Made by a program: the position numbers and the translations under genes. From NCBI GenBank assembly GCA_031279815.1, contig JAITHW010000077.1, positions 1 to 41,295 on the forward strand: DNA of 41,295 nucleotides, in the 5' to 3' direction. Positions 17,363 to 21,314 of this stretch are shown piece by piece. The first letter of the stretch is position 1. Every line of letters starts with the position of its first letter. Source of the stretch: Treponema sp. (GTDB lineage Bacteria; Spirochaetota; Spirochaetia; Treponematales; Breznakiellaceae). The notes beneath the pieces are model-generated. The model had not been told where the DNA came from. It did no database searches and saw nothing but the letters and a program-made list of their open reading frames with translations.

Positions 17363-17391
17363 TTGACATATATAAAAAAGTACCGTATCCT
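17363..17391 (+). promoter_or_regulatory. Promoter of FliG-like/MotA-like pair
   Basis: TTGACA (17363-17368), 17-bp spacer, TATCCT (17386-17391). The leader before ATG 17412 would be only about 14 nt and includes AAGGGG as ribosome site. Confidence 0.7.
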
Positions 17392-17411
17392 TAGAGTAAG
17401 GGGTTTGCGTT

Positions 17412-17903
17412 ATGGGGGATAAATCTATTGTATTGACCATGTACGGCCAGGATGAACAGATAGACAGCGTTTCGATAAGTTTGTTTGACAGAGGAAACGG
17501 CTGTTCATATCCGTACAGCAGCGCTATTCGGTATTGTAACAATATCAATAATCTGGAGCTTGCGGGCAATAAATGGGTTTACGCCGCGGTTATCGATGAA
17601 AACGAGAAAGTGGTTTTAAAAAAACCTCCCCGGTTGTTTGATATGATTACCCGCTTGAACGGCGGTTCGCTTCAAAGGCTATTGAGAGAAGTTGGCAGGC
17701 CCGTTCTGGCTAGGGCGTTAAAAAACGCCGGTATGGAAACAAAGAAAAAACTATTTGACAATATGTCAGCCCTAGCCGGGGTAATGTTGAGCGAAGACAT
17801 AGCGGGATTAAGGTATATATCTGATGAAGATATAAAAGCCGCCCAACAGAATATCATTCAGACCGCTCAAAAATTAGCCCATACCGGAGAGATCATATTC
17901 TAA
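17412..17903 (+). CDS. Stand-alone FliG C-terminal-like domain protein
   Basis: 163 residues. The first 70 or so have no recognisable family. Residues about 74-163 align without gaps to the torque-generating end of FliG: SLQRLLREV, LARALKN, KKKLFDNMS, EDIAGL and a KLAHTGEIIF end like the FliG RRLEEEGQIVI end. Compared with E. coli FliG, Lys104 matches Lys264 and Glu128-Asp129 match the acidic pair Asp288-Asp289, but Leu121 replaces Arg281 and Ser replaces Arg297. The N and middle FliG domains that build the rotor ring are absent. It is soluble with no signal peptide. The next gene, 24 bp downstream, resembles the MotA cytoplasmic part, the natural contact of this FliG surface. Real motor FliG is about 340 residues, so this is not the motor subunit itself. 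Confidence 0.8.
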   Translation: MGDKSIVLTMYGQDEQIDSVSISLFDRGNGCSYPYSSAIRYCNNINNLELAGNKWVYAAVIDENEKVVLKKPPRLFDMITRLNGGSLQRLLREVGRPVLARALKNAGMETKKKLFDNMSALAGVMLSEDIAGLRYISDEDIKAAQQNIIQTAQKLAHTGEIIF

Positions 17904-17927
17904 CGGAAAGCCGCAGGAGGGAGCAGC

Positions 17928-18302
17928 GTGAATCGCGCCGATTTTGAGGAAGCGTATAAAGCTATAGTAGAACGGGCCATTGCCTTCGCTGAAAAAGCCC
18001 GCCGCGAAGGGCTGCTCGTGATAGAACCGCTGCTGGACGATCGGAAATATAAGCAGCGGGATATACTGGAATTCGGCCTGCGCTTGGTTATCGACGGAAT
18101 CGACGACCGCATAATCGATAAAATCCTAACCAATTGTATTGCGCTTGAAACCGAAGAGGATCAAAAAACATTACAAAAGATACAAAAAGAGGCCGTCCTT
18201 GGAATACAGAGCGGATTGAATCCCCGAGAGCTTATGGTGCTCATGAATTCCTATGTCGATATAGGCATTGAAGACGCCATAAGAAAATACGGTGAATTAT
18301 AA
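17928..18302 (+). CDS. MotA-like protein reduced to its cytoplasmic segments
   Basis: 124 residues from GTG 17928 behind GGAGGG. Residues 20-67 read like the MotA cytoplasmic loop: AEKARREGLLVIE, then LEFGLRLVIDGIDDRIIDKIL. Residues 88-112 (EAVLGIQSGLNPRELMVLMNSYV) match the MotA segment after its last membrane helix. No hydrophobic span is present, so the four MotA helices that form the ion channel are missing and the two cytoplasmic pieces are joined. Arg25 and Glu33 align with E. coli MotA Arg90 and Glu98, the residues that touch FliG. The gene follows the FliG-like gene on the same transcript. It cannot conduct ions; a regulatory or decoy role is inference. Confidence 0.75.
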   Translation: MNRADFEEAYKAIVERAIAFAEKARREGLLVIEPLLDDRKYKQRDILEFGLRLVIDGIDDRIIDKILTNCIALETEEDQKTLQKIQKEAVLGIQSGLNPRELMVLMNSYVDIGIEDAIRKYGEL

Positions 18303-19203: not shown

Positions 19204-20262
19204 ATGAAGCACATATTGGTTGTAGATGATAACCTTACGGCCTTAAAACAGTTGGAGGCGCAGCTTGCCCTCCGGTATGGTGTTTCCCTTGCCAAATCAG
19301 GCAGGCTGGCACTGCAAATCGGGCGCTCCGAAGTGCCGGATCTCATACTGGTAGATACGGAAATGCCGGATATGGACGGGTTTGCCGCCATTGCCGCCTT
19401 GAAAAATGACCCTCTCCTCCAGCATATCCCGGTCATCTTTCTCTCCGAGGATTATGATCCGGCAATGGAAGTGAGGGCCCTTGAAGCGGGCGCCGTGGAT
19501 TTTATCCCTAAGACAACTCATACGGATATACTGCTCCACAGAATCGAACTCCACCTCCAGCTCTTTGCATATCAGCACCATCTGGAGCATACGATCAAAG
19601 AACTGGAAGATAATATTGTGCTGTCTTTTATGGAATTGGTGGGCTGTAAAGGGGATACGGCGGATAACCATCTGCCGGCTACCGGGGACTATGTGAGGTT
19701 TATCGGGCAAGAACTGCTGAAACGGGGAACCTTCGGCGCCGCGCTGACTGGAGAGGAAGTGGAATTGATAGGCCGGGCGGCCCCCTTTCATGATATCGGG
19801 AAGATTGGGATAAGCGATTTAATCCTGATGAAGCCCGGCCCCCTGTCCCCGGAAGAGTATGAGGAGGTTAAAAAGCACACGGTTATCGGCGGGCAGGTAC
19901 TGGGTTTCATCTATGAGCGCAATCCAGAGCAGCTTTACTTCAAATACGCTCAATTGATGGCCCTGGGACATCACGAGCGGTTCGACGGTTCAGGATATCC
20001 CTCTGGATTGGCTGGAGAGGATATCCCCTTGTGCAGCCGGATTATGGCTGCGGCGAATGTCTATTCCGCCTGTATCACAGACAGGATCTACCGCCCCGCT
20101 TATAGTCATGCGGAGGCGATCGGGATCATCATCGCGGGAAAGGGAACCGAATTTGACCCCCGCATTGTGGAAGTCTTTGAAAACGCAGGCGGCGCCTTCC
20201 GGTTCCTGCCGAATAACAGCCTTTCGGAATCCGCAAAATCGAAGCGGATGCTGTACGTATGA
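19204..20262 (+). CDS. Response regulator with HD-GYP domain, metal site partly degenerate
   Basis: 352 residues. REC receiver domain 1-120 with Asp8-Asp9 and phospho-acceptor Asp51 (LVDTEMPDMDG). An HD-GYP domain follows with HDIGKIGI, a KKH histidine, HHERFDG and GSGYPSGLAG. HD-GYP domains hydrolyse cyclic di-GMP at a two-metal site. Here the usual ADVYDALT metal Asp is replaced (AAANVYSACIT), and the Arg after the first His is also lost. The neighbour's site is complete, so this copy may be a weak enzyme or a binding partner. Its stop overlaps the next start (ATGA). The pair arose by duplication, judging by near-identical N termini. Confidence 0.88.
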   Translation: MKHILVVDDNLTALKQLEAQLALRYGVSLAKSGRLALQIGRSEVPDLILVDTEMPDMDGFAAIAALKNDPLLQHIPVIFLSEDYDPAMEVRALEAGAVDFIPKTTHTDILLHRIELHLQLFAYQHHLEHTIKELEDNIVLSFMELVGCKGDTADNHLPATGDYVRFIGQELLKRGTFGAALTGEEVELIGRAAPFHDIGKIGISDLILMKPGPLSPEEYEEVKKHTVIGGQVLGFIYERNPEQLYFKYAQLMALGHHERFDGSGYPSGLAGEDIPLCSRIMAAANVYSACITDRIYRPAYSHAEAIGIIIAGKGTEFDPRIVEVFENAGGAFRFLPNNSLSESAKSKRMLYV

Positions 20263-21314
20263 AACATATATTGGTAGTTGACGATAATCTTACCAGCCTC
20301 AAACAGATCAAAACCCTGCTTGCGCAGCATTATGAGGTTTCTCTGGCGAAATCCGGGGTTCAGGCATTGCAAATCTGCCTCCATGAACGGCCCGATCTGA
20401 TCCTGCTGGACGTGGAAATGCCGGAAATGGACGGGTTTGAAACCATTGAGCGGCTTAAAAAAATCCCCACCCTCAAGCGGATTCCCCTGGTTTTTCTCAC
20501 CGTAAACCGGGAACCTTCGGTCCAGATCCGGGGGCTTGAGTTGGGAGCCAGGGATTATATCATCAAGCCTGTGGCGAAAAATATTCTGCTGCACCGCATA
20601 GAACTGCAACTGCGCTTCGCCTCTTTTCAGTCCCATCTGGAACACATGGTGATGAAAATGTCCGATATGATTGCCACTTCCCTGGCGGAACTGATTGAGT
20701 GCCGGGATGAAAATACCGGCGGTCATGTGATCCGCACGAGCGCCTATGTGGATCATATTGGAAGGGGTTTGCTGGAGAAAAATTTGTTCTCTGAGGAGCT
20801 GACCGGTGCGGAGCTGGATATGATGGTGCGGGCCGCGCCTTTGCACGATATAGGCAAGATCGTTATCAGCGACCGAATTCTTTTGAAGAACGGGCAATTG
20901 GATGAAAACGAGTTTGAGGATATGAAGCGGCACGCGGCCATCGGCGCGGAGATTTTGGAGAAAATCTACAGCCGAACCCCTTCGCAGCACTACCTCAAAT
21001 ATGCTATTATGATTGCCCATTCCCACCATGAACGTTACGACGGCGCGGGATATCCCCTGGGACTCAAGGGTAATGAGATACCCCTCTGCGGGCGGATCAT
21101 GGCGGTGGCGGATGTTTATGACGCCCTCACCCACGACCGGGTGTATCATAAAGGGAAAACCCATGAAGAAGCATACCGCCTTATTATGAAAGACAAGGGA
21201 ACCCACTTTGATCCGCTTGTTCTGAATGTTTTTGAGGATATCCACGAACGTATGGCCGCGGACACCATGTTTATGGAAATCCCGGATATCCAAAGCAACG
21301 GGGATTACCGGTAA
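20259..21314 (+). CDS. Response regulator with complete HD-GYP cyclic di-GMP phosphodiesterase domain
   Basis: 351 residues. REC domain with Asp8-Asp9 and Asp51 in LLDVEMPEMDG. The HD-GYP domain has the full set: TGGHVIRTSAYV, LHDIGKIVI, KRHAAIGAEIL, SHHERYDGAGYPLGL and AVADVYDALTHDR. It is therefore expected to lower cyclic di-GMP in response to phosphorylation by a histidine kinase not present in the window. It is translationally coupled to the preceding paralogue and ends 1 bp before the next ATG, so all four genes to 23102 are probably one operon. Confidence 0.93.
   Translation: MKHILVVDDNLTSLKQIKTLLAQHYEVSLAKSGVQALQICLHERPDLILLDVEMPEMDGFETIERLKKIPTLKRIPLVFLTVNREPSVQIRGLELGARDYIIKPVAKNILLHRIELQLRFASFQSHLEHMVMKMSDMIATSLAELIECRDENTGGHVIRTSAYVDHIGRGLLEKNLFSEELTGAELDMMVRAAPLHDIGKIVISDRILLKNGQLDENEFEDMKRHAAIGAEILEKIYSRTPSQHYLKYAIMIAHSHHERYDGAGYPLGLKGNEIPLCGRIMAVADVYDALTHDRVYHKGKTHEEAYRLIMKDKGTHFDPLVLNVFEDIHERMAADTMFMEIPDIQSNGDYR

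Follow-up and report, generated by a model that had tools for sequence, protein, structure and literature searches.

The contact between FliG and MotA is the site of torque generation in the flagellar motor, and its study is hampered by the fact that MotA is a membrane protein within a large complex. FliG (TIGR00207; PF14842, PF14841 and PF01706) carries a C-terminal six-helix torque domain together with FliG_N and FliG_M, which serve FliF attachment and ring building. MotA, PomA and MotP (PF01618) combine cytoplasmic segments with four membrane helices, and FliM (PF02154 and PF01052) has a CheY-binding motif, a middle domain and the ring-building FliMN_C domain. YcgR, a brake with a PilZ fold, and EpsE, a clutch with a glycosyltransferase-like fold, come closest in action to what is proposed below, in that a soluble protein would work at the FliG-MotA contact, but their folds are unrelated, and here the motor would be bound by paralogues of its own parts. 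Within the contact, genetics has assigned the pair MotA-R90/FliG-D289 to stator positioning and the pair MotA-E98/FliG-R281 to torque (PMC4030992).

The window, by which we mean the whole stretch of 41,295 nucleotides analysed, corresponds to contig C234 in a spirochaete genome assembled from a metagenome (2.8 Mb, 80% complete) and holds two adjacent genes, ORF1 and ORF2, at the place given by the original prediction (Table 1). They belong to a conserved soluble module of two parts, the FliG torque domain (FliGc) and the MotA cytoplasmic domain (MotAc), which are encoded by neighbouring genes or within a single chain and lack whatever builds the rotor ring or anchors the stator. The named relatives are Treponema and Spirochaetaceae genomes, with isolate codes that we take to denote termite-gut material. 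A single promoter had been proposed for both genes; a consensus scan does place a sigma-70-like site before ORF1 and none between ORF1 and ORF2, but shuffled sequence yields such sites equally often. ORF2 starts with GTG, preceded by a ribosome-binding site.

ORF1 is like FliG in its torque domain, which retains equivalents of K264, D288 and D289. Pfam FliG_C matches residues 76-162 (E 4.7e-21), and Foldseek superposes this domain on FliG crystal structures at 0.8-1.3 Å, with 0.8 Å for 4fhr and 1lkv. Unlike FliG, it has neither FliG_N nor FliG_M by Pfam, so it could not join FliF or build the C ring, and it scores 53.6 bits against the FliG family profile TIGR00207, whose cut-off is 226.7. The proposal that ORF1 consists of the torque domain only holds as far as these missing parts are concerned, but residues 1-75 form a second conserved domain, new with respect to FliG and predicted to fold as strand-strand-helix-strand, in which Y41, C42, I45, N46, L48, L50, W55 and A58 are invariant in eight homologues; Foldseek found no fold match for it in the PDB. 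The AlphaFold model of ORF1 has a pLDDT of 81. Matches over most of the length of ORF1 occur in 13 genomes of the family, that in G181 not being confirmed as an intact reading frame, and the ORF1 of the window is fast-evolving and lies on a long branch of the FliGc tree.

ORF2 retains both cytoplasmic segments of MotA in order. It falls below the Pfam threshold, yet it matches the NCBIfam MotP/MotA profile (E 2.9e-9) and aligns with PDB MotA over two in-order stretches, MotA 80-132 and 218-248 (E 5e-7), which in MotA lie on either side of membrane helices 3 and 4. When aligned with the MotA of its own genome (G000:C80), ORF2 proves to lack about 66 N-terminal and about 74 internal residues, corresponding to the two pairs of membrane helices, 1-2 and 3-4, and to have its cytoplasmic stretches joined, just as had been predicted. 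The AlphaFold model is a compact helical fold (pLDDT 92, pTM 0.87), and Foldseek ranks the MotA of the MotAB-FliG complex 8ucs first among its PDB matches (E 0.008; TM 0.72, normalised by query length), the modest E-value probably being due to the interruption of the target by membrane helices. Since all four helices are missing, ORF2, unlike MotA, would form no ion channel or membrane pentamer, and no gene for the partner MotB lies alongside, the neighbour being an FMN reductase. The peak 19-residue hydropathy is 0.98 for ORF1 and 0.75 for ORF2, so neither is a membrane protein.

Table 1. Features of the window and of related loci; positions without a locus, genome or contig prefix are those of the window.
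Feature	Position	Strand	Basis
Sigma-70-like promoter TTGACA-17-TATCCT, 5' of both genes	17363..17391	+	Consensus scan, 10/12
ORF1, 163 aa, soluble: novel N-terminal domain and FliG torque domain	17412..17903	+	Pfam, family alignment, AlphaFold
ORF1 N-terminal domain, residues 1-75, Y-C-x-x-I-N-x-L-x-L motif	17412..17636	+	Alignment, secondary structure
FliG_C torque domain of ORF1	17637..17900	+	Pfam, Foldseek
Ribosome-binding site AGGAGG of ORF2	17915..17920	+	Sequence
ORF2, 124 aa, MotA cytoplasmic segments joined, four transmembrane helices absent	17928..18302	+	Profile, PDB, AlphaFold, alignment
Two tandem response regulators with HD-GYP-type output domains	19204-21314		
Second full-length FliG, 431 aa, N+M+C	G000:C203:3820-5112 (L064)		
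MotAc-FliGc single-chain fusions, family f1	L049, L058, L059, L035		
MotAc-FliGc fusions, family f26, three species, 245-262 aa	L155-L157		
MotAc-FliGc fusion, family f39, 270 aa	L161		
FliM proteins stripped of the ring domain	L164:4212-4967 (G177); L165:4764-5507 (G179); L166:709-1392 (G167); L163:2548-3129 (G143)		
FliGc-LRR-MotAc-MotAc cluster	L034:1605-12189 and L163 (G143)		
Cluster of EIDALL-motif proteins, family f3	L107:3088-10681 (G254)		
Domain of about 75 aa	L047:6668-7462; L058:2255-2482; L165:5794-6051		
Frameshifted MotAc copy	L077:6001-6368		

The proposed residue assignments are borne out. In ORF2, R25 corresponds to MotA R90 and E33 to E98, and in ORF1, K104 corresponds to FliG K264 and E128-D129 to D288-D289, with L121 and S137 in place of R281 and R297. 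R90 persists in 41 of 54 soluble MotA domains and E98 in 39 (with D in five more), which places these two positions second and third among the 20 charged columns that true MotA conserves. The 39 non-canonical FliG domains compared, a set that includes several FliG paralogues with FliG_N/M domains, have R281 in 33 cases, E for D288 in 36, D289 in 28 (E in seven more) and R297 in 22, which is about as well as other charged residues are kept and so demonstrates no selection on the FliG side. The selective retention of contact residues that had been suggested thus stands for the MotA side, but not for the FliG side. Hardly any domain but that of the window has lost R281. There, the docking contact R90-D289 is retained and its torque counterpart E98-R281 is lost, but we attach little weight to a single sequence.

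About 26 of 200 family genomes encode soluble MotAc, the search having been repeated across the order, and the module is therefore accessory. ORF1-type genes and soluble MotAc were found together in nine of 13 cases (p 1.4e-6 by Fisher's test, with no correction for shared ancestry), and the two genes are adjacent in eight family genomes, the window included. A crude hydropathy count gave no transmembrane segments in the soluble MotAc proteins (one LRR fusion barely reaches the threshold) and two to five in intact true MotA. The dN/dS ratio is 0.15-0.36 in six pairs of homologues, all of them from relatives, as the window's own genes are too divergent from any relative for this measure. The origin of the pair from motor genes is certain and ORF1 evolves fast, as decayed fragments of duplicated fliG and motA would, but more than 50 domains have had the membrane segments excised and retain the cytoplasmic ones in their order, and there are intact frames, a ribosome-binding site and a confident fold. 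Such decay is thus highly improbable, and we reject it on the dN/dS values, the fold and the recurrence in relatives. Adjacency in eight genomes, the low dN/dS and recurrent fusions argue that the pair is conserved, under purifying selection and not a set of pseudogenes.

The two domains are joined as MotAc-FliGc in one chain in three spirochaete families (f1, f26 and f39), and in family f3 (L159) a FliGc gene, a PcfJ-like gene, a MotAc gene and a FliG-like gene stand in a row. The natural MotAc-FliGc fusions L162 and L049 have 245 and 250 residues. Both domains are also joined to LRR, DUF4116, Sel1/TPR and ankyrin repeats, with up to three MotAc per protein and architectures such as FliGc-LRR-MotAc-MotAc. 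In the complete genome G143 (4,059,867 bases), a protein of the latter type, two MotAc-DUF4116 proteins and a FliM-like protein lie within about 20 kb. A MotAc-FliGc fusion also stands beside DUF4116 and Sel1 proteins on contig LIUG01000098 (L073) of Candidatus Fibrimonas termitidis, binned to Fibrobacterota, which points either to transfer between phyla or to mistaken binning. A domain of about 75 residues, IscX-like by eye, either ends a MORN-repeat protein or stands alone near MotAc loci.

FliM has a counterpart of the same kind. Relatives hold FliM proteins that, like FliM, keep the CheY-binding motif and the middle domain, but unlike it lack FliMN_C and hence the ring-building contact (L164, L165 and L166); three of the four stripped FliM proteins in Table 1 bear one or two N-terminal motifs of the CheY-binding type. 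Motifs of the FliM type, for example GGTISQDEIDALLGG, terminate the soluble MotAc domains of G254 (family f3); elsewhere among the reading frames of the retrieved loci, this motif occurs in FliM, in FliY-type proteins and in one protein beside a FliM-like gene. The G254 cluster of proteins with FliM-type EIDALL motifs comprises three soluble MotAc, a further two proteins of uncharacterised kind, LRR proteins of the BspA type and, as a neighbour, a PARG-like protein; one of its MotAc is fused to a sliding-clamp-like (DnaN-N-like) domain, at a weak E of 0.0077. Three partners, MotA, FliG and FliM, thus occur stripped of exactly their membrane- or ring-placing parts.

The clamp-like fusion and the PARG-like neighbour, along with the patchy accessory distribution and the eukaryote-like repeat partners, would suit a competitor or anti-competitor device, in which domains of core machines serve as decoys against phages or rivals attacking the motor. 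We consider this improbable, as no phage record matches and the sole copy on a contig classed as viral, an IMG/VR contig of 86 kb, is frameshifted. Carriage by phages or plasmids was likewise rejected, given that no phage matches and that plasmids, where annotated, hold only true FliG. The trees (about 110-120 columns) allow the soluble forms to have arisen once or several times: they reject neither one clade of soluble MotAc (p-AU 0.49) nor one clade of ORF1-type FliGc (p-AU 0.37), and the MotAc tree, which omits about 15 stand-alone MotAc rows, undersamples stand-alone copies. G+C content falls to 0.40-0.46 over the pair, most of the flanks having 0.50-0.56, which is compatible with later acquisition without proving it.

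The identified genes beside the pair are an esterase, an FMN reductase, a glycosidase and an HPr kinase, none of them flagellar. Apart from repeat proteins, and a methyl-accepting chemotaxis protein at three loci, an all-against-all comparison of neighbours found no conserved third partner. Two tandem response regulators lie about 1 kb downstream of the pair. The window genome has its own FliG, FliM and MotA; its second full-length FliG lies apart from the main one and adjoins a PreP-like M16 peptidase. Nearly all examined carriers of the module have motor genes, the exceptions being incomplete genomes.

The fusions to repeats and the lack of flagellar genes around the loci favour the main rival to a motor regulator, namely that the pair has been reused as a docking device, a FliGc-MotAc connector that joins or polymerises LRR, Sel1/TPR, ankyrin or DUF4116 scaffolds without touching the motor. 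The recurrence of FliGc and MotAc in one operon or chain and the multiple MotAc copies of some proteins are consistent with such reuse, but the FliM-type CheY-binding motifs, borne by soluble MotAc and by stripped FliM, link the set with chemotaxis and the motor, and motor genes are present in nearly all examined carriers; we regard such reuse as possible, if rather doubtful.

Our preferred reading, held tentatively and at a little short of even probability, is that the module is a soluble regulator of the flagellar motor, its halves perhaps held in a mutual complex until released. It is favoured by the identity of both domains by profile and fold, the absence of transmembrane segments, the adjacency, fusions, f3 cluster and co-occurrence described above, the low dN/dS, the high rank of R90 and E98 and the contact roles known from genetics (PMC4030992), along with the genome's own FliG, FliM and MotA, the FliM without a ring domain and the EIDALL motifs of G254. 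MotAc would occupy FliG on the rotor and FliGc would occupy MotA on the stator, and the freed halves, being unable to join the ring or the channel, may act as blockers of stator docking or slow the motor. As the two domains recur together or in one chain, they probably hold each other inactive until a signal separates them. This signal may be read by the N-terminal domain of ORF1 or, in relatives, by the repeat domains and the CheY-binding motifs, the latter pointing to chemotaxis. A kept docking contact and a lost torque contact, as in the window, would suit a part that docks without driving. Set against a motor regulator are the non-flagellar neighbours and accessory status of the module, the many copies fused to LRR, Sel1/TPR or DUF4116 repeats, as expected of scaffolds, the ordinary conservation of the FliG contact residues, and the long branch of the window's ORF1 and its lack of R281 and R297. 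It is also conceivable, at appreciably less than even probability, that spirochaetes assemble the rotor-stator-switch contact set a second time, in soluble form, as a cytoplasmic signalling or scaffolding system, in which MotAc, FliGc and FliM without a ring domain, sometimes with CheY-binding peptides, are coupled to repeat-domain proteins, a kind of system undescribed before.

The observation behind the original prediction is therefore confirmed, the kinship with FliG and MotA being upheld by profile searches and fold comparison and the co-occurrence by the genome survey, and its interpretation is partly supported. Beyond its reach lay the wide occurrence of the pair, its fusion in three families, the FliM counterpart and the repeat-fused forms. 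It had also held that no system of this form was known, and in the open-access literature we found no description of soluble proteins of the rotor-stator contact, whether single, paired, fused or attached to repeats, a search that could miss an account in a subscription journal. While the domains are already known, the soluble form is apparently undescribed, and a motor regulator is its likeliest role. The module suggests an undescribed way to regulate, or to reuse, the contact that drives bacterial swimming, and natural soluble partners and single-chain fusions would open this contact to measurement, crystallisation and mutation in solution. Should the module act on the motor, it would represent a new type of regulator, derived from paralogues of the motor parts, in bacteria with internal flagella.
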